DNA of 64,000 bases from Brachypterus glaber (Eukaryota > Arthropoda > Insecta > Coleoptera > Kateretidae): positions 18,989,589 through 19,053,588 of the forward strand of contig OY294048.1 in the NCBI GenBank assembly GCA_958510825.1, read 5' to 3'. A program made the position numbers and the translations under genes. The notes beneath the pieces were generated by a model. That model ran no database searches. It was not told the origin of the DNA and saw nothing but the letters and a program-made list of their open reading frames with translations. This document shows positions 39,813 through 62,984 of this stretch, piece after piece. Each line of letters starts with the position of its first letter. Within the stretch, counting starts at the first letter, position 1.

Positions 39813-39884
39813 AGCAGAGTGGCGCAGTGGAAGCGTGCTGGGCCCATAACCCAGAGGTCCGTGGATCGAAACCACGCTCTGCTA
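39813..39884 (+). tRNA. Initiator tRNA-Met (CAT), copy 1
   Basis: A 72-nt gene that folds completely. The acceptor stem is AGCAGAG/CTCTGCT with the A1-U72 pair of initiators and discriminator A. The anticodon stem has the three G-C pairs GGG/CCC around CCCATAA. The T-stem CGTGG/CCACG carries the A54-containing loop ATCGAAA typical of animal initiators. A TTTTTT pol III terminator follows at 39890-39895. Internal A and B boxes are intact. Confidence 0.97.
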
Positions 39885-40039
39885 GTAACTTTTTTATAAC
39901 CCAACTTATGTTATTTTAAATACATATATTTAACTAAAATATGATGGTCCGTAATGCTAGGACAGAAATGTCCACATTTTTTTGTGGAAATTTTTATTTT
40001 GGACAATTTTTTTATTTAAGGTAATTTTATTCTAGTAAG

Positions 40040-40111
40040 AGCAGAGTGGCGCAGTGGAAGCGTGCTGGGCCCATAACCCAGAGGTCCTTGGATCGAAACC
40101 ACTCTCTGCTA
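40040..40111 (+). tRNA. Initiator tRNA-Met (CAT), copy 2, probably decayed
   Basis: Same as copy 1 except for two changes in the T-stem: CTTGG faces CCACT, leaving two of five pairs mismatched. The B-box-containing loop is unchanged. The terminator is a TTTTT run at about 40118. It is likely a pseudogene or a weakly stable transcript. Confidence 0.85.
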
Positions 40112-40415
40112 TAAACCTTTTTATAATTAAACACGAGTTTATTTGCTACTCAAATATAATTTATTAATTTGACTAGAATGATACATTGGTGGAGCGGCAA
40201 GTATTGTAACTACTAAACTAATGTAGTCTAGTGGCCGTTATGCAAGTAGTGTAAAGGCCGTAAAATATTATGCAACAACAACTTATGTTATTTTTAATAC
40301 ATATATTTAACTAAAATATGTTTGTCCGTAACGGTAGGACTTAAATGTACACATTTTTTGTGCACATTTTTATTTTGGACAAATTTTTTATTTAAGGTAA
40401 TTTTATTCTAGTAAG

Positions 40416-40487
40416 AGCAGAGTGGCGCAGTGGAAGCGTGCTGGGCCCATAACCCAGAGGTCCGTGGATCGAAACCACGCTCTGCTA
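40416..40487 (+). tRNA. Initiator tRNA-Met (CAT), copy 3
   Basis: Identical to copy 1 through all 72 positions, with a TTTTTT terminator at 40493-40498. The leader TATTCTAGTAAG before the gene is shared with copies 2 and 4, which shows that the flanks were duplicated along with the gene. Confidence 0.97.
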
Positions 40488-40638
40488 TAAACTTTTTTAT
40501 AACCAAACTACTGTAGATTGTTAATTAGGTACATGTTAATTAAAGACGAGTTTATTTGCTACTCAAATATAATTTATTAATTTGACTAGAATGATACATT
40601 GGTGTAGCGGCAAGTATTGTAACTACTAAACTAATATA

Positions 40639-40817
40639 CTATTCCATCAATCTATTTTCTAATCATCATGCAGAGTTGACTCTTGGCACTGAAGAGGGCC
40701 AGCAGCCCGAAACTGTCAGTCTACCAATATCACTCTGTACGATGATTAGAAAATAGATTGATGGAATAATAAATTAATATTTTTATAATTTTGTTTAAAA
40801 TTAAAAATTTCTGTCCT
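40639..40817 (+). mobile_element. Hammerhead-bearing retro-inserted fold-back element
   Basis: A 179-bp insertion flanked by a perfect 15-bp target duplication, TACTAAACTAATATA, at 40624-40638 and 40818-40832. The empty site is visible in the paralogous interval between tRNA copies 2 and 3, where ACTAAACTAATGTAGTC is unbroken. The element opens with a 28-bp arm (40640-40667) perfectly complementary to 40741-40768, with a hammerhead ribozyme fold on top and an AT-rich tail of about 50 bp. There is no coding capacity. The long target duplication points to target-primed reverse transcription supplied in trans. Confidence 0.88.
40671..40737 (+). ncRNA. Type I hammerhead ribozyme
   Basis: All core parts are present in order: CTGAAGA at 40689-40695, stem II GGGC/GCCC with loop CAGCA, and GAAA at 40709-40712. 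Stem III is a short A-C-U/A-G-U hairpin with loop GUC, ending in the cleavage-site C at 40721. Stem I is formed by CAGAGT...TTGG-A upstream with T-CCAA...ACTCTG downstream around an internal loop, and it continues into the 28-bp element arms. Predicted cleavage is between 40721 and 40722. The very short stem III resembles hammerheads of Penelope-like elements and retrozymes. Activity is inferred from structure only. Confidence 0.85.
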
Positions 40818-41022
40818 TACTAAACTAATATAGTCTAGCGGCCGTTATACAAGTAGTGTAAAGGCCCTAACATAGTATGCAACACCAACTTATGTTATAT
40901 TTAATACATATATTTAATTAAAATATGTTTGTCCGTAACGCTAGGACTTAAATGTCCACATTTTTTGTTAACATTTTTATTTTGGACAATTTTTTTATTT
41001 AAGGTAATTTTATTCTAGTAAG

Positions 41023-41094
41023 AGCAGAGTGGCGCAGTGGAAGCGTGCTGGGCCCATAACCCAGAGGTCCGTGGATCGAAACCACGCTCTGCTA
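41023..41094 (+). tRNA. Initiator tRNA-Met (CAT), copy 4
   Basis: Identical to copies 1 and 3, with a TTTTTT terminator starting at 41100. The downstream flank diverges from the array, so this is the right edge of the tandem set. Confidence 0.97.
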
Positions 41095-41650: not shown

Positions 41651-42088
41651 TTTAAATTGTGAATTGAGAATAGTGGGACTGGATATTGGTAAAAAAACAA
41701 AAACAACAGTTAATGTATGTCGCATTACATCTTTTATTAAGACTTCTCCAGGACTAATATTTGAGGGTTGTTGTTGTTGTCAAAACTAGACTAAAAATAT
41801 GATAACACAAATAAATAATGATGGTTTTCATTACACAAACGACTTTGTTCGCTGCTTTCATTGTTTGTACTGTATGTTTATTTAAGTTTTGTTTTATTTT
41901 TTGTCTAATGAAAACCATCATTATGTATTTGTGTGATCATATTTTTAGTCTAGTTTTGACAATAAGAACCCTCAAATGTTAGTCCTGAAGAAGTCTTAAT
42001 AAGAGACGAAACGTCGACATACATTAACTGGTGTTTTTGTTTTTTTTTAGCAAGATCCAGTCCCACTATTCTCAATTTACAATTTAAA
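41651..42088. mobile_element. Palindrome with 183-bp arms and a hammerhead-like motif
   Basis: Arms at 41651-41833 and 41906-42088 are equal in length and mirror each other (AATTGAGAATAGTGGGACT / AGTCCCACTATTCTCAATT-type landmarks). In the right arm CTGAAGA (41985-41991), a GTCTT/GAGAC stem and GAAA (42008-42011) stand in hammerhead order; no good stem III with a following UH site is evident. In the left arm the GAAA position reads GATG, so that copy is decayed. Confidence 0.8.
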
Positions 42089-53000: not shown

Positions 53001-56000
53001 CTAGGACAAAAAAAGTTGTATATGAAAATAAAGACCATCATTTTCTGTCCTATTTTTTTGTCTAATTCGACTAATTCACTTCATTTGATGCTTGTAGTTT
53101 TGGTAAAAATATATATTATTCATGTGTAACACTTGAACTGTGTTCTTTTATTTCCAAATACGTATAAAAAATTTAAAATTAAATTTAGGCAGCCGTTTAA
53201 AGAAATGTCTCCTTCATGGTGATCTCAATGGTTAAGTACTTACATAGTTATATGGAAATTTTACCATGCAGGGCCCTGTAAGCCAAATTGTCGCAACAGA
53301 ATGAGTAGCCTTCCATATCTTTATGGCTTGTTTTCTATACTTAATTATATATTTTTTAAATTCAACTGACGTAAAAAAGGTGCATAGGTCAAAAATATCA
53401 AATAGCAATAACTCTCAGAAAATTAAATTTTAAAGATAACAGTTAAACCGATTAATAACACTAAACCCAAACATGAAATTGAATTTATTATCATACATTT
53501 ATACACATAAGGCGTACTTCATGGAGGGATGCAAAAGAACTGGCGAAGGATAGAAATATATGAAAAAGTTTTGCAAAGACAAAACAAAACCCGACACCTA
53601 ACGGTACCATGGGTTAACGGATAACTATCTAACATTTATACACTAGGAATGGTAGATATCAACAAAGAACATGGGGTTTGGGTAAACCGTGTTAATTGCA
53701 TTTTTGCAACTGATTTGTTTAAATTTTACAAAATTTTGTAAAACAACTTATAAATATATGTATTCTTTTTACTTTGTATTTATTAAAAAATTACACCTGT
53801 CGGCATTTGGCATTATCTTACTCTTGAACACAGGTACCGTATCGGTACATCTAAGTAGAATCACAACTTAGGGGACGTCCATAAAGTATGTAACGCTTTT
53901 TTAAGCAATTTTTGACCCCTTTCCCTTCTGTCACAAAGTTTCACACCAGCACTGACTCCCTCCGCCCCTATGTGTCCCTTTACATTAAATTTTTATAATA
54001 TATTTTATACAAAAAAAAAATACTTTTGTATTTTAAATATTTTTAAGGACAGAAATTTTTTATTTTAAAGAAAATTATAAAAATACAAGCTATGAAGCCC
54101 GTTCTTCGGACGGGGTAGTTAAAAACTTAAATTAGTTCTCTCTTTACTAACCTTGTTAAATAATATTCCTGAAATCAGGGGTATAGGGAGTATTTTTTTA
54201 TTCTAATTTTCGATATCAATAAAGAAAATTTTTGCCAAATATCAAGATTATATAGTAAGAGGTTTCTGAGATACGCAAGCTTTTTAAAAATGTCTAATCT
54301 TTAAATTATTCCCCTCTTAAAACTAAAATATCACAATTTTTACACCCTTTGGGATCGAATATCGAAAAATCCTGAAAGACGTATCTTTTCGATTTCGATA
54401 AAGAACATTTTTGCCAAATATGAATATTTTAAATTAAGAGGTCTTTGAGATAGGCAAACTTAAAAAAAAAAAACCGTTTCACCCCCTTAAGGGTTGAATT
54501 TTGACAAATCGCTTGTTAGTGGGTGCTTACATAATAAAAGGAACAAACTCTCCAAGTTTCAAGTTTTTATGTCCAGGGGTTTAGGCTTGGCGTATTCTAC
54601 TGAAGTGAGTTAGTTAGAATTTTATATAATAGATTAATAATTTATTATTCCATCAATCTATTTTTTAATCATCGTACAGAGTGATTGCTGGCCCTCTTCA
54701 GTACCAAAAGTCATCTCTGCACGATAATTAAGAAAATATTCCCTGACCCAATGAACTAGCTACGTTGTTAGCCATTAAACGCATTCTTTACTTTGGGGGG
54801 TTCAAATTTTCGACACTAGGTGGTGCGATTTGGTAACTTTATAGGGAATTTTATCATAATAGTTTTTTCTGGTAATAGCTACGGTTGGCATATTGATATC
54901 TTTATCTGAATAATTTATATGTTTGAGCAGACTTTTTGAGCCTTTCCTTATTATATGTTAGTTTTTTTTAATTAATTTTTATTCATTTGATAGGAATGTG
55001 CATGGTACATAATAACATGGAATGAATGCTAAAACATGGAATGAAAGGAATAAAAAGGGAAGCAGTGTAATTATTTGTATTAATAGACTAATGCATATGC
55101 TTTTCTTAAGCCAGCAACAAAAATTAATTTTAACAATATATTTTGGGGCTAATATAAGGAAAATGGCCGAGGAATTGAACAATCTACACGCCAGAACCAA
55201 AATGCATTTAAGTATGTTAGGAATGAAGGTTCGGGTCCTTCAAAAGATTCAACTGCTTTTAAATAAGGTACCTACCTACCTACCTTCTTGTTTTTCATTA
55301 TTGTTGTTTTTTTTATTTCTGTTATTTTTTTAATTTAATATATTTCTGTAATTTTTTAAAATAGGAATATGTTTTTTTGAGAAATGTTATTTTATATCAA
55401 TGAACTAGTTCATTGTTTTGTATACGTTTTTAAATCCATTGACATAACCCTGAAATTTTCATTGTCAATAAACCACAATGGCCAATCCTAAGATAAAAAT
55501 TCCCTGTAAAGTTACTAAATCGCACCACCTAGTGTGAAAAATTTGAACCCCCTAAAGTAAAGAATGCGGTTAATGGCTGCCATTCATATTAGCCACTTGT
55601 TCAGACACCATTACTGTTCCACCACTCCTCTAGTTCATTGCCCTGATCTTACTTGCAAAATAAGTAATGTCATTAGATTAAAACTTATGCGCCATCTATT
55701 GCTAGATGTAGACAACTACTCATACTTCTCCTAGTCTGGAGACTTTTTGAATGGTAGCAGCCCGAAACATCCAATATCACTCTGTACGATGATTAGAAAA
55801 TAGACTGATGGAATAATAAATTAAATGTTTTTATTACATTTCAGATACCTAAAACTTTGCTCAAAGAAGTACATAAAATGCAGTTGAATATAACAAGGCC
55901 TTAAGGATGAGATAGAAAAAATTGTACTATGGTCTGTTTTTTCAAGCAAGATAGTTAATTAAAAATCACACAGTAAATATTTTACAACAGGTTGGAATAG

Positions 56001-59000
56001 TATATGTTTGTTTATGGAATATAGTTATGTTTTATAAAATAAACTACGCAGTATATTCGCACATTCAATATTTGAATCTGTTTTGAAAATATTCACTGTG
56101 CGATTTTTTATTTACTATCTTGCTTGAAGAAACAGACCATAGCACTTTAATTTATTTTGTTGATCACATTTCTCTAGAACTATCTCCTCTCCCTGTCACA
56201 AAGTGTCACAAAATCCCGGACCCCCACACCCCCATAGTCGTGCATACTTTACGGACTTCACCCTTAGTATCTACCATGTCTTGTAATTTTTTACACTAGA
56301 TTTAAGGTAAATATTTTTAATATATTTCTAATTAATTGCAACATTTTTTTTTCTACATAAACCTATTTTAGTTATTTTAAAATATTACTATAATTATCAT
56401 ATTATAATCTACCCAACAAGTATGGGGTCTAAGTACCATTTAACCAACATTTTGATGCGACTTTTGTTAAATGGCGCTTAGACCTAATACTAGTTGCGTA
56501 AATTAACGTAATATTTAAAATAACTAAAATAGGTTTATGCAGAAAAAAAAGTGACATAAAAACTGTTTTATTTAATATTTATAATTCGTCAGTAGCACAA
56601 ATTAATAGAAAATGCACTTTTCGGTTAATATGGGCAATTTCGGGGCCTTGTTGGCACGGGTTAAAAATTTTTGATCAGGCTAAGGCCTATTTTTATACTT
56701 AAAATGAAAAAATATAGATATCAAGGTTTTTAAATTTTATAAAATTACAAACACTAGGGCTAGTTTTATACGAATTTTATCGATATTAGGGTTTTTGGGG
56801 CCCTAAATGTACCCCTTAGGATTGTCTCTATAAATAACACATAAAAAAGATTAAGCTAATATTTTTTTTTGAACCACCCGAGGAACCACCCTAGTGTATG
56901 ATGGCTGACAATTTTTTTTTCACTTTTTTTGACCTATTAAAAGATTTTAAATCAAAATCTACAAAAAAATCTTCCCACTATACTTACTAATCCTTGGCCT
57001 ATTATAGGCCAATTATTATAGGTGTATACCTAATATAAAAAATAAAAGTGGCTTTTAGTAAAATGTTATATAAAAGAATTAAAGTTCCGGTTGAACTAGT
57101 TGTATTCGGTTAAAAACTGAATTCGATCATTATCTCTATTTCCTGTGATTTACAAGTACAGGGTGATCCAACTTTAATTACGCAAGCCAATATCTGGCTG
57201 AAGTTATTTCCAAAGTTCTTTTTTACTTGTCTGTTCTTGTTATTTTTAATAATATTCTCGATTTTGTTTACAAGAAGACGTGAGCCATATTTATTGATTT
57301 TTTCCCAGAATATCCAAGTTTGTAATAGTATATTTTTAAGACAATTATTTATTAAAAATTGTTAATTGGTTAACTTTATTTTATTCATGCTAAAATAAGC
57401 TTTTCTTTTCACAGTTTTACCTTCCTAATACTCAAGTTATTAGCTAGGGAATTTAGGGTTACCATAGTAACCTTAAAAGGTATTTTATGAAGGTTACTTA
57501 CATTCTAGCTAGGTACATTGCCATTTTTTCAGATTTTCACTTTTTTGAATTTTTGACTAGAGCTTCTTACTACCTTTTTGCCTGTACTTAAAAAACATAA
57601 AAATATTAAATATAGGTTAAATTTTGTATATTGGTATAAAATAAAAGTATAAAATTAGCAGCCTAGCGCTTTCGGCACCATTCCGGTACCATCCTCAGGG
57701 CAGGCCTTGTTAGGGTCAGCCTACTCTTATCTGTGCAGTAAATTACGGTCACATTGTATAACATTTAAAACATTTAAACATTTAAAAGGATTTACCAAAC
57801 ACAATTAAAAAAGAAAAATCATTTAAGAACTAGTTCCGACATTTTAAAAAATGTTCTGAAATGATTTTTCATTTTAAAAAATGTCGGAACTAGTTCTGAA
57901 ATGATTTTTCTTTTTTAATTGTGTTTCGTAAATCCTTTTAAATGTTTAAATGTTTTAAATGTTATACAATGTGACCGTAATTTACTGCACAGATAAGAGT
58001 AGGCTGACCCTAACAAGGCCTGCCCTGAGGATGGTACCGGAATGGTGCCGAAAGCGCTAGGCTGCTAATTTTATACTTTTATTTTATACCAATATACAAA
58101 ATGTAACCTATATTTAAAATTTGTGGTATACTGTCAAAAAACCTTATTATAAAAATATTATGCACATAGCCCATTTTATTTACAATGCAACCAGGTACTA
58201 TGTGCATTTTTTGAGATTTTTTTAGTGCAGGGCAACGAGGTTTTAACTAATAATAATATAATAATTATAATGAGTAATAATAATTTATACAAATTAATAA
58301 AAAAAAATAGCCACAAAAACATGTGAATTTAGTGCAAACCGGTTCTAGCTCAGTTAGAACCCTGTTGTACTACTACTTTTCATAGATTTTTGGGTTATCA
58401 AGGTTCTAACTAATTAATTATTTTAGATGCGGCTTAAAACCCGTTAATAAGATCATATTATTAAAACAATTTCAAGAACAGAGAAGGGGATAAAACTCAA
58501 AAATAGTTTTATATACCAAGGGACTAAACTGGCTGTTTTAGTCCCGCTGCATGAGTGTTTCCTGAGCGAGCGCAGCGAGCGAGGGAAACCGAAATGCAAG
58601 GGACTAAAACATCCACGTTTAGTCCTGAGGTATATACACTATTTTTTGAACGACCAAACATAATTTAGGTAGGTAGAGTAAAGTAAAATTAAAAACCATG
58701 CGTCTAAAATCTGGTGTTTTCTTTTCGTAATTTAATCAAGCTGCCTTTGAATTGCGAAAAGTCAGTTTCACGGCTATCGCGATTTCAATTGTTTTTTAAT
58801 ACAGTTGACACAAACGTCAGTTCGAAAAAATGGACGAAGACGATATATTTTAAGTAAAAAGTCCAAACAATGTTATTTTTTAAGGTTTTCTTTGTTAAAA
58901 TCAAATAAATTTGTTTGAATCGTTAATTTATTACAAAACTTCACCAAACCTAATTTTTGTACCAGTAAAACATATAGTAAGTATAATATTTTAATATTAT

Positions 59001-60702
59001 CAAGGTTGCCGTGATTTCTATTCCCTTGGGACAAAAACGGCAAGTTTAGTCCCGAAAATGAAAGCGTAAAATTAAGTTTTAGTCTTGGTCGTGCAAAGAA
59101 GAATTTTTAAAATTGCTTCGTTACGGAATTATTGGCCTGTGTAAAGTTGGATCACCCTGTAAATACCAGTTAATTAAGGACTGACCAGCAGTATATTTGG
59201 AAATGAGAGGGGGGTGGACCATTGTAAAAAAAATTGGTTTTGGGAGAAGGTTTGCTAATAAAACAGGCTCGCGGCGAGAAAATCATTTTTTTTTTAATTT
59301 TTGTTTGTTCGGAATTAGGTGTAACTATAAAATTCTAAAAATATCAGTCATTAAACTTCTCTAAGGGTCCTAATTGGGCCTCTAGAATTAGTAAAAGTAT
59401 CCATAAATTGTAAAAAATCGTTGAAAATTATAAAGAACTTTCACTTTCGGGTTTAGACCGTGTTAATGGATTTTCACTTTCCGACGTTTCGTCTCTTACT
59501 ACTAGAGACATCTTCAGGGATTAATCTGAAACTAAGTTTCGAATCAACTTGTGTCACTATTTATGACGAGTTGTGGTTATTCACCCGTGACGAGGTTTTT
59601 CCTATCAAAGACTTCCATATTGCAGGTAAGTGGTAACCAGTGTCCCGATTGATATTGTTAGGATGCTTGATGATTTCTATCGATTCCCGTATCTTCCTTG
59701 GCATTTTTCTGTTTTCTGTTAATATTTGTTTTGTTTCAGACAAATTGATTTTATGACCTGTTTCATGTACATGTTCGGCTACTGCCGATAAGGAAATTTG
59801 TTTCTTTCTTATATTGCGCTCATGCTCTTGAAGTCTTGTAGAAATTTTTCTCTTAGTTTCACCTATGTAATTGTAGTTAATTCACTTGTTTATAGGGCGT
59901 TCATGATTTCAGACAAGAATTCCCTAGACACAGAACTCCTTAAACTAACCAAAGCCTTGACCATGAACGGTTATACCAAAAAAGACATTAATAAGACCAT
60001 ATACAAATACAGAAATCCCAGACCCAAACAACAGGACAATAGTGACAATGACAGACAGACACAAGTTATACTTCCCTATGTAAGCGGTATCACGGATAAA
60101 ATAGGTAAACTTTTGAAGAAGTCAAATATTAAGCCTATATTTCGGTTATATAAAAATTTTATCAAAATATGCGTCAAAAAATAATTTTTTGAATTTAGAA
60201 GCCTATTAAAAATAAACGAATAAATATATTTTAAATTCGCTTTTTTTGGCTTAGAGTGCCACTAATAAAGAATCAATCCACGGCAAAAAACCACTGTGCG
60301 CTATATCTCAATAAAACGAATTGATCAAGAAAAACGGAGAAAGGTTCCGAAATCAGCGCATCCAATATAGCCAGACGCAACTTAAATCTCCCCGGCAAAT
60401 AAAAAAATCTTTTTTTGTAGAGCAGTGTTATTATTATTATTATAAAATCTGTAAAAAATATTTTAGGAAACAAGACCCGCTTTAGTCAAACTACGCGTGG
60501 CAGATTACTCTGAAGGATACTATAAGACAAAAATAAAGTTTGGTTCTCCCTGGTTACCCGGTCACTGGGAAAAGAACAATTCGTTTGTACGTCCCGAATC
60601 TGGAGAGCATTGTTTCCCATTCTGGATCGCTTCGATGAAACGGGACCACATAATAGACTCCAGATGTTTGTCGATAAAACCCACCTGGATGGGCGATAAT
60701 AG
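49918..60702 (+). CDS. PI-PLC X-domain protein, paralogue 2 (both ends missing)
   Basis: Two exons (49918-50066 and 60467-60702) match, one for one, the first two identified exons of the PLCXD gene at 23893-32961. They cover only the N-terminal extension and the PTWM junction. The catalytic-His exon (PGTHDSG) is not present between 60703 and 64000, so it should lie past the right edge. The start exon was also not seen upstream. The intron between them is 10.4 kb and carries several nested elements. The gene is a tandem duplicate in the same orientation, about 17 kb downstream of the first copy's stop. Whether it is active cannot be told from this part. Confidence 0.8.
50067..53870. repeat. 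First part of the PLCXD paralogue 2 intron
   Basis: Contains poly-A-rich degenerate units at 50090-50430, a direct-repeat relative of the 41165-type family at 51655-51780, and several C-rich MITE-like ends (for example near 51780-51915, GTTACGTAATACTTGAACG). No exon of the host gene is recognised. The AT-rich block 52700-53100 shares pieces with 46540-46760. Confidence 0.5.
54646..55815. mobile_element. Nested inverted pair of broken hammerhead elements
   Basis: The left edge (TATTCCATCAATCTATTTTT) and right edge (AGAAAATAGACTGATGGAATA) match the arms of the 40639 element. The left copy, read on the minus strand, has CTGAAGAGGGCCAGCA but lacks the GCCC-GAAA and cleavage-site part, a ~24-nt deletion. 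The right copy keeps CAGCAGCCCGAAAC and CCAATATCACTCTG but has lost the CTGAAGA side. Neither can fold as a full ribozyme. A further inverted-repeat element sits between them. Confidence 0.75.
54770..55578. mobile_element. Innermost fold-back element with ~90-bp termini
   Basis: Left terminus 54770-54860 (AGCCATTAAACGCATTCTTT, then CTAGGTGGTGCGATTTGGTA) is mirrored at 55496-55578. Outside them CAATGAACTAG / CTAGTTCATTG are also inverted. A 103-codon plus-strand frame at 55022-55333 (MNAKTWNERNKKGS..., then ANIRKMAEELNNLHARTK) has no recognised domain; its hydrophobic end suggests chance. Confidence 0.75.
56264..57166. other. Intron DNA, nothing recognised
   Basis: AT-rich, with a CCATTTAACCAACATTTTGA / TTGTTAAATGGCGCTTAGAC mirrored pair at about 56435-56480 and AATATTTTAAAATAACTAAAATAGG / CCTATTTTAGTTATTTTAAAATATT arms around it. 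That makes a small inverted repeat spanning roughly 56340-56560. No exon. Confidence 0.5.
57167..59161. mobile_element. 2.0-kb element with TACAGGGTGATCC termini, hosting others
   Basis: TACAGGGTGATCCAACTTTA at the left is mirrored by AAAGTTGGATCACCCTGTA at the right, with CAAGCCAAT / ATTGGCCTG just inside. The interior holds the 508-bp palindrome at 57608-58115 and a separate block at about 58500-59110 built on AAGGGACTAAA / TTTAGTCCC inverted words around GAGCGAGCGCAGCGAGCGAG. No transposase was recognised. Confidence 0.7.
57608..58115. mobile_element. Perfectly balanced 508-bp palindrome with hammerhead-like motif in each arm
   Basis: Two 246-bp arms (57608-57853 and 57870-58115) flank a 16-bp centre and match almost base for base. 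Each arm carries, on opposite strands, CTGAGGA, a GGTACC/GGTGCC stem with loop GGAAT, and GAAA: 58025-58053 on plus and 57670-57698 on minus. This is the hammerhead order CUGANGA-stem II-GAAA. The next bases give AGC/GCT as stem III, but the residue after it is G, where cleavage needs A, C or U. Confidence 0.85.
59487..59517 (-). other. Hammerhead-like motif 3' of a Penelope-like fragment
   Basis: On the minus strand CTGAAGA, a GTCTCT/AGAGAC stem with loop AGTAGTA, and GAAAC follow each other 44 nt after the stop codon of the GIY-YIG fragment. Penelope-like elements are known to carry hammerheads in their terminal repeats. A convincing stem III and stem I were not found here. Confidence 0.55.
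59561..59878 (-). pseudogene. Penelope-like element, GIY-YIG endonuclease C-terminus (fragment)
   Basis: The minus-strand frame reads YNYIGETKRKISTRLQEHER, then a SLSAVAEHVHETGHKIN block, then RKIRESIEIIKHPNNINRD and ends shortly after LPAIWKSLIGKT. YIGET, the R-x-EH segment, the AEH-HETGH segment and the RE-x-x-EI-x-K tail are those of the C-terminal GIY-YIG nuclease of Penelope-like retroelements, which nicks DNA to start reverse transcription. The first half of the domain (the GVY-like strand) and the reverse transcriptase are missing. The frame is intact over this stretch, so the insertion is fairly young. Confidence 0.85.
59879..60142 (+). pseudogene. Penelope-like element, post-RT linker (fragment, inverted)
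   Basis: The plus-strand frame reads NSLVYRAFMISDKNSLDTEL, then TKALTMNGYTKKDINKTIYK, then LPYVSGITDKIGKLLKK and NIKPIF. This is the stretch that lies between the reverse transcriptase and the GIY-YIG domain in Penelope-like proteins. It starts at the very base where the minus-strand GIY-YIG fragment starts, so the two run outward head to head. It is cut off at 60142 by another repeat. Confidence 0.8.
60143..60432. repeat. Single arm of the 29201-type palindrome
   Basis: Matches the right half of the element in PLCXD paralogue 1 intron 4: TTTTTTGAATTTAGAAGCCT, then AAGGTTCCGAAATCAG and ending GAGCAGTGTTATT. It finishes 34 bp before the exon at 60467, with a short (TTA)n run next to it. Confidence 0.8.
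60467..60702 (+). CDS. PLCXD paralogue 2, exon b
   Basis: Acceptor ATATTTTAG in phase 0. It encodes ETRPALVKLRVADYSEGYYK, then GSPWLPGHWEKN, SGEHCFPFWIAS, CLSIKPTWMGDN, matching GYHKT, PGNW, CF and PTWM of paralogue 1. I place the donor at GTACAG (60703), because this gives phase 2 as in paralogue 1. A second possible donor GTATTT at 60716 would give phase 0 and add four residues. Confidence 0.85.
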
Positions 60703-60965: not shown

Positions 60966-61249
60966 AATTAACAGTTATTTATAATATGAAAGGGGAAAAT
61001 AGGATTTTGCCCATGAGAAAATTAACCCACAAGGTTTGAGAAGGGGCCTTTAGGCTCCAAGCGGAGTGGGTTAATTTTAAAAAGGTTAATATTATATTAT
61101 GGGATCCTATAACAGTTATTTATAATATGAAAGGGGAAAATAGGATTTTGCCCATGAGAAAATTAACCCACAAGGTTTGAGAAGGGGCCTTTAGGCTGCA
61201 GGCGGAGTGGGTTAATTTTAAAAAGGTTAATATTATATTATGGGATCCT
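60966..61249. repeat. 142-bp tandem duplication
   Basis: Two nearly identical units begin ACAGTTATTTATAATATGAA and contain GGCGGAGTGGGTTAATTTTA. They differ mainly at CTCCAAGC versus CTGCAGGC. A single diverged copy is at about 38965-39070. Just upstream, at about 60877-60950, are several TGACGTTA / TAACGTCA words. Confidence 0.85.
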
Positions 61250-62984
61250 ATGACAGGATTTCATAGAAATTTTCTTGCCATTACTCATAATATGAGTACA
61301 GGACAAGGGCAGATATACATATTATGTATATCTGCCCTTGTCCAGTGAAAGGAATTTTCCACAGGCGTAGAAAATCTATACTAATCCGATGATGTACATC
61401 GAATCAGCACTGATAATTTAGCAAGCTATAGTCGATATAGCAACTAAACAGTACTGCTCAGTTTACGTAATTCCAGAAAAAGACTTTATAAAGTCCTCAA
61501 TCTTTAATCAATATATAGAATTTAAAACTTTTTTTAGTGGTAAAAAAAATATGTGGCGCCTGAGCATTAAATAGACATCCCAGCGACGTACAGTTTTGAT
61601 GACGTCAAGATTTGACCAAAAACTGACATTTTGCCACGTCTGATATGCGTCGTATGTATGACGGCATTAAAATCTTCGTCTTTATTTTATTTTTTTCTTA
61701 AATTTTAAATAAATTTCTTAAGTTTCTCAATACCAAACTACTATCGATTTTTTAAATATTGTTTGTTAAAATTTCAGTTCAGCAAAAAAATTAAGGTTTT
61801 GTTTCTTGAAAAAAATGAGTCAATGCTTTTGAAGGGAGTTTAGGCTCTTTTGAAAGTTGTATTGTTTAAATCTGTTCAAAAATTATAATTATAATTATTT
61901 AAATCTTGTAATTTCAAAAGTTTTATGCTGCTGCATGATCAATACCCATGGCTCGTCTAAAAACCATTTTAATACACTTTGCTTCAGTATGAGTATGGTT
62001 ATTTTTTTATTTCCAAGTATGATAGCTAGAGATTTTAAATTTTATGAACATATTCAGGACACGTTTCCCTTTACAAAAATAATAAACACTCGTGACCATC
62101 CACTCTGGAAGGTGAAATAGTTCTTCCATATTTTTTTAAGTTGGTACTACTTATACCAAAGTATTATAAAAACGTGTTTAAAAAATAATACAGTTGCTTT
62201 TCATCCGTGAAACGAGTAAGATGTACTTTCGGCAGGAATTAGTAATACGTTAAGCGCGTTTAATTTTCTAGCATCAAGTCTTTTAGTATTAGTTATTTAT
62301 TTATTTATTTGCTATCTTAGATATGCCCCAGAATCGATTTTATATATTTTATAGTGATTGTATGGAAGATGTACAGTAAAATGACGAACATGTGATTATA
62401 TTGGAGTAAGAAGGGAATTTTATGTTTTTTAATCATTTATAATGCTGATAAATTTTGATTTGGAAGCAACTAACACGTGAAGAAGTTTTTATACGTACAA
62501 AATTTTTTATATACTAGCGCATGCGCAAATATAATTACAAATTAGAAAAAACTGCCTTGGCAACAGCTAACACAACCAACAGTAAACACGAAAAGGAAAG
62601 AAGGAAAAGAAAAAGAAAAGGTCTTACAGAAGACTGGAAATTTTATATAATTAAAACAGGAGTGGGCATGGTAAAAAGCCAGACAAGAACCACTCTTGGT
62701 GAATTGAGTAACTAAGAGGGATCTGGCTAATTATCTCACTGAGAAAAGGCCAAAATAAAGGAAGAAGAAGAAGAAAAAATAATAATCATAATAACTTATA
62801 ACTTGTATAATTTCAAAAATTTAAACTTTCACCGCATTCCAAAAAACTTATAAATAGCTATAGCTGCCGATTTTAGATTTCGCATAAATATTTAGTTTCT
62901 ATTATTTTCCATAATTGGAAAACACCTCCACCCTACCCTGTGGTAATGTAGTAGTAGTAGTAAAACTACCCTGTGGTAATAGTA
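61250..62984. other. Intergenic or intronic, no gene supported
   Basis: At 61465-61560 lies a copy of the GACTTTATAAAGTC / GTGGCGCC family. At 62757-62775 a (GAA)n tract ends a polar AAGGAAAGAAGG-rich stretch, a possible retroposon tail. An exon-like frame at 62022-62113 (IARDFKFYEHIQDTFPF) has weak splice-like borders but no family match. Confidence 0.4.

Follow-up and report, generated by a model that had tools for sequence, protein, structure and literature searches.

An insertion with a type I hammerhead motif in a long hairpin between tRNA-Met genes of Brachypterus glaber, apparently shortened from a small mobile element akin to retrozymes and Penelope elements

Judged by the papers cited below, two groups of animal elements come closest to the insertion described here. 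The first comprises the non-LTR retrozymes, which are ~170-400 nt in size, are arranged as tandem hammerhead monomers and have target duplications that, when present, exceed 4 bp (PMC7229834). The second comprises the Penelope elements, whose insertions have inverted head-to-head pLTRs with junction palindromes and an inferred self-priming step, and whose target duplications are quoted as 8-10 bp (PMC3846280). One of the inverted Penelope ends may carry an optional tail, given as 31 bp in PMC3846280 and as 30-40 bp in PMC11167929. A purified Penelope-like protein was reported to cut and extend both strands, to prefer ATT sites and to start inside the RNA, and its insertion in vitro did not need hammerhead cleavage (PMC11167929). 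The hammerheads of Penelope elements are described as minimal, without helix III (PMC7761336), and Penelope-like elements have been named as strong candidates, without proof, for moving animal hammerhead elements (PMC7229834, PMC7761336). The schistosome retroelement Sm-alpha is likewise short and non-autonomous and contains a type I hammerhead (PMC6155905). Among the matches listed from the open-licence literature, no title or opening of an abstract described a hammerhead element like the present one, in fold-back or clamped form.

In the 64-kb stretch of DNA analysed here (the window), a 179-bp element at positions 40639-40817 on the plus strand, referred to as copy a, is flanked by an exact 15-bp target duplication, TACTAAACTAATATA, the two identical copies of which lie at 40624-40638 and 40818-40832. 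When the 50-nt flanks were shuffled 1000 times, an equally high score never arose. The element is situated among four tRNA-Met genes starting at 39813, 40040, 40416 and 41023. When its flanks were joined and compared with the spacer that separates the second and third tRNA copies, 210 of 222 positions were identical, and the empty paralogous site in that spacer (40211-40225, plus strand) was found to be 1 base off the duplication. The interval 40639-40817 was confirmed as a genuine insertion between tRNA genes carrying a hammerhead motif in a long hairpin. The original prediction of a retro-type insertion was borne out by the exact duplication and the empty site, and the predicted lack of a protein and of a tandem monomer layout also held, no protein frame having been noted in the 179 bp and no second hammerhead of the family adjoining them. 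Within the tRNA-Met row (39813-41094), the second gene scored 44.7 bits compared with 57.7 for the other three.

Like the animal retrozymes (PMC7229834), copy a has a type I hammerhead and is short, non-coding, A+T-rich and strongly self-paired; its 179 bp fall inside their range of ~170-400 nt, and at 15 bp its target duplication is also longer than 4 bp. Unlike the tandem hammerhead monomers described for retrozymes, the copies found here are single, with no tandem array in the window, and the stem I of copy a continues into a perfect 28-bp arm. With Penelope-like elements (PMC3846280, PMC11167929), copy a appears to share inverted head-to-head ends, a one-sided tail, an A+T-rich target and a type I hammerhead motif, but it has no protein, it possesses a helix III, and its duplication measures 15 bp rather than 8-10 bp. 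Its layout of inverted ends, tail and duplication resembles that of Penelope, a resemblance seen across three copies only, and a Penelope-type origin for the layout is suggested by analogy, which is not proof. The likeness to Sm-alpha (PMC6155905) is one of description, and unlike that element no tandem satellite was seen in the window. Copy a would seem to derive, in shortened form, from a small mobile element akin to the known retrozymes and Penelope elements.

The hammerhead motif of copy a spans 40669-40739 on the plus strand, and all core parts of the type I form were present, namely CUGANGA, GAAA and UH, three stems and an open end on stem I. Outer stem I is formed by 40669-40676 and 40732-40739 (TGCAGAGT/ACTCTGTA), and inner stem I by 40683-40688 and 40722-40727 (TTGGCA/TACCAA, with C40687 and A40723 mismatched). 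The core C3-A9 (CTGAAGA) occupies 40689-40695 and is followed by stem II (40696-40699/40705-40708, GGGC/GCCC, with the loop CAGCA), the GAA after stem II (40709-40711), stem III (40712-40714/40718-40720, ACT/AGT, with the loop GTC) and C17 at 40721, which places the predicted cut at 40721/40722. When a hammerhead descriptor was run over both strands of the window, this site was the sole match. The same descriptor gave no match in 1500 simulated Markov-1 sequences of 64 kb or in 2,549,736 resamples with the composition of the copy a inset itself, figures which are rough bounds on chance since the limits of the descriptor were chosen after the site was seen. A chance origin of the hammerhead core is unlikely.

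The prediction of a complete type I hammerhead stood as far as the core is concerned, every core base being in place, but not for stem I, which has a C x A mismatch (C40687 x A40723) directly beside the cut and is further interrupted by an internal loop and by A40668 x C40740. The covariance-model check proposed for the motif was negative when run with Rfam. The hammerhead families gave no match to copy a at the gathering score, nor at E values up to 10 on 82 nt, in searches made without a positive control. The hammerhead-like motifs near 41985 and 59517, described below, were likewise unmatched, suggesting that the silence of Rfam on copy a may partly reflect low sensitivity. Other Rfam matches, including MIR7723, SNORD44 and SNORA36, were discarded, as they scored well under the respective gathering thresholds. 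With tertiary contacts unscored, the hammerhead secondary structure came to -13.4 kcal/mol compared with -24.8 kcal/mol for the minimum-energy fold, which pairs the hammerhead core bases, and the best fold with the core kept open (-18.5 kcal/mol) was also not the hammerhead arrangement. The 74-nt inset alone showed only a moderate excess of stability over shuffled sequences (z -2.39, 2/200 equally good). Stem III is short, with 3 bp and a 3-nt loop, and its segment ACTGTCAGT is its own reverse complement save for the central base, so that a dimer would be favoured. Type I hammerheads with a weak helix III are described as cleaving better as dimers (PMC7229834, PMC7761336).

Two relatives of copy a were detected within the window by short-word blastn. 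Copy b (54633-54845, minus strand) is 213 bp long and copy c (55503-55823, plus strand) about 321 bp, its 5' end being taken from the alignment with b, and each consists of a 5' body and a 3' module. Positions 40728-40776 of copy a were 48/49 identical in c and 47/48 identical in b, and b and c further share, at 93%, an 83-nt 5' stretch which is absent from copy a. The hammerhead is broken in both relatives. In b, the 5' half CTGAAGAGGGCCAGCA is exact, but a gap of 24 nt in the alignment with copy a falls on the rest of the hammerhead, and there is a T at the mismatch C40687 x A40723 of copy a; c retains GCAGCCCGAAAC from the 3' half but has no CTGANGA. Copy b is flanked by a repeat (54617-54632/54846-54862) with 16 identities in 17 columns, which was equalled in 1/1000 shuffles with 61- and 51-nt flanks and in 46/1000 with a flank ending at 54850, within the repeat itself; it is a probable target duplication. 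No target duplication was found in the flanks of copy c.

As b and c have this 3' module attached to a longer 5' body, copy a is best regarded as belonging, in 5'-truncated form, to a short non-coding family in which the hammerhead and arm form the 3' module, a reading built on three copies within the window, two of them with broken hammerheads. The earlier picture of a self-contained fold-back element defined by its arms had to be given up in view of this shared module and of the 5' body missing from copy a. No tandem copies were seen in the window, b and c being single, and no SINE head (tRNA, 5S or 7SL RNA) was matched by Rfam over 54600-55900 at E values up to 5. Exact-pattern scans for relatives outside the window in viral_contigs and genome_contigs, collections not meant for animal genomes and possibly lacking the records of the window itself, gave no match. 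Between b and c, a 105-aa open frame (MAEELNNLHARTK...) lies at 55016-55330 on the plus strand and is possibly a host exon; a 48-aa piece of it matched 0 Pfam families.

The 28-nt 5' arm of copy a (40640-40667, plus strand) is the exact reverse complement of the 28-nt 3' arm (40741-40768, plus strand), the latter being common to b and c, and the whole insert folded at -69.1 kcal/mol (z -9.78), with 0/200 shuffles equally good. The predicted 28-bp perfection of the arms held, all 28 of 28 positions pairing. In b, the arms pair over 23 bp around one bulge, and an internal loop then separates this stretch from only 5 further, weak pairs. Because this arm pairs less well, the perfect outer arm of copy a may partly be a by-product of insertion. 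The left arm of copy a is the complement of its own 3' arm, and the target end next to it, TAATATA, resembles the expected continuation TAATTTA.

Our preferred explanation, held with slightly better than even confidence, is that copy a arose when a member of a short non-coding family of the animal retrozyme or Penelope-associated type was retro-inserted without its 5' part; the 3' module of this family is a type I hammerhead in a long extended stem I. This explanation was drawn from the duplication, the empty site, the core far above chance, the common 3' module, the 83-nt 5' stretch common to b and c, the hammerhead halves retained in b and c, the probable duplication around b, the pairing of the arms in b as well, the Penelope-like layout, and the presence in the window of five hammerhead-like motifs against a simulated mean of 0.24. 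Counted against it were the lack of an Rfam match, the mismatch beside the cut and the more stable rival fold; the restriction to three copies, two with broken hammerheads; the dependence of b's duplication on the flank used and the absence of one in c; the length of 15 bp compared with the 8-10 bp quoted for Penelope; the tail common to a hammerhead-free locus; the presumed status of the Penelope fragment discussed below; and the lack of a tandem array in the window.

For the mechanism, we infer that a Penelope-type reverse transcriptase would use a transcript of the element as template at an A+T-rich target. The enzyme would prime from both target strands, or the new strand would fold back, and the outcome would be head-to-head inverted 3' ends, a one-sided extension and a target duplication. 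The hammerhead in the RNA would cleave at 40721/40722, probably more readily in dimeric form, and the cut pieces would be kept together by the 8 plus 28 bp of stem that extend past the core. In a single unit the cut would possibly amount to a reversible nick that leaves the RNA usable as a template, whereas cleavage of tandem transcripts would free unit-length RNA, as in retrozymes. A more speculative extension, to which we attach little confidence, gives the arms two jobs, in that they would clamp the cut RNA (making the cut a reversible nick and the RNA copyable across the cut site) and would also allow a short cDNA, primed from the second target strand, to pair with the main cDNA and start second-strand synthesis. 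If this were true, the fold-back form would be a replication device and not a by-product. A bounded monomer, an empty site, two decayed relatives and a Penelope-like layout in one window provide a concrete test case for models of the priming, the tail and the arms.

The tail of copy a lies outside the arms and comprises 49 A+T-rich nucleotides (40769-40817, plus strand). Its portion 40778-40817 recurs at 54046-54085 on the minus strand, with 38/40 identities and no hammerhead, so that the tail is shared with other sequence. The tail may be an optional extension, as in Penelope elements, or the sequence of another element acquired by a template jump. In the latter case, copy a would be a chimeric insertion, in which a LINE-type reverse transcriptase started on the 3' tail of its own RNA (40778-40817) and then jumped to an unrelated hammerhead hairpin RNA, and the hammerhead family would have no dedicated mobility machinery. 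The match to the hammerhead-free locus is in keeping with such a jump, as are the sequence between arm and duplication, which is only 13 nt in b compared with 49 nt in a, and the likeness of c to a, which ends at about 40786. A 15-bp target duplication is also within the usual range for LINE-type insertions. However, an optional one-sided tail is a described Penelope feature too, and b has its own probable duplication without the tail of copy a. We consider the chimeric insertion unlikely, although it is the strongest competitor of the truncated retro-insertion.

The window was scanned for CTGANGA and GAAA together with a stem II no shorter than 4 bp, a rule written after a looser scan, when the motifs had already been seen. 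This gave five hammerhead-like motifs compared with a mean of 0.24 and a maximum of 2 in 400 simulated sequences. They were the motif of copy a, motifs at 41985 (plus) and 59517 (minus), and an inverted pair at 57698 (minus) and 58025 (plus). In the four motifs other than that of copy a, a single unpaired base follows A9 and the helix III loop is missing, and by our own reading they resemble the minimal Penelope motifs. Those at 41985 and 59517 consist of CTGAAGA, stem II and GAAACGTC, with the extra base after A9.

The motif at 59517 adjoins an open frame on the minus strand (59564-59881) which contains YIGETKRKISTRLQEHE and which we take to be a probable Penelope GIY-YIG endonuclease fragment. 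Its single database relative, P0002, is 40% identical and reads GVYKISCSCGKCYIGE. A second frame in the opposite orientation (59792-60181, plus strand) is presumably like the C terminus of a Penelope-like reverse transcriptase. Pfam gave no support for either frame and no GIY-YIG match, and PDB sequences gave no meaningful match to the 59564-59881 frame. The predicted model of that frame was of low confidence (pLDDT 62.8, pTM 0.29) and all helical, lending no support to a GIY-YIG fold. Pfam searches with 8 peptides of the window returned no family. A 319-aa frame of the window had no match among 2489 candidates, and two joined exon-like translations matched a single unnamed protein with 45% identity.

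Another possibility is that a, b and c are pieces, as pLTR-like ends, of one Penelope-like family and not of a separate non-autonomous retrozyme. Copies b and c are inverted head-to-head, their lengths of 213 and 321 bp are near the 181-218 bp quoted for pLTRs, and hammerheads occur in published pLTRs. Yet none of the listed open frames adjoining the three copies was recognised as Penelope coding sequence (reverse transcriptase with GIY-YIG endonuclease), and the published Penelope hammerheads are minimal and without helix III, unlike that of copy a. Treating b and c as a single composite insertion with a common duplication was also rejected, 697/1000 shuffles being equally good. We regard this possibility as improbable.

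Less probable still is a small DNA transposon (a MITE or foldback element) with a chance hammerhead-like sequence. Perfect arms and the abundance of inverted repeats in the window (68 pairs, each of at least 40 nt and within 3 kb) would suit it, but the arms of copy a are not terminal, having the 49-nt tail outside, and do not abut a short duplication, 15 bp is a long target duplication for cut-and-paste elements, and the hammerhead core is far above chance.

The 68 inverted pairs indicate that fold-back forms are common in the window, whatever the cause. A fold-back sequence at 41651-42088 has arms at 41651-41839 and 41900-42088 that are 89% identical over 192 columns, the right one containing the motif at 41985. 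A near-perfect palindrome at 57601-58122 has arms of 253 nt (98%) separated by 16 nt; each arm contains one of the hammerhead-like motifs (57698 minus, 58025 plus), and the palindrome is possibly flanked by a 12-bp repeat, ATAAAAATATTA, for which 3/1000 shuffles were equally good. The inverted pair 46333-46390/46802-46859 (58 nt, 90%) contains CCTGAAGA in each arm with no hammerhead-type stem II. Tandem repeats were observed at 1016-1412 (a 99-bp unit in 4 copies, 98%) and at 60969-61256 (a 141-bp unit in 2 copies, 97%).
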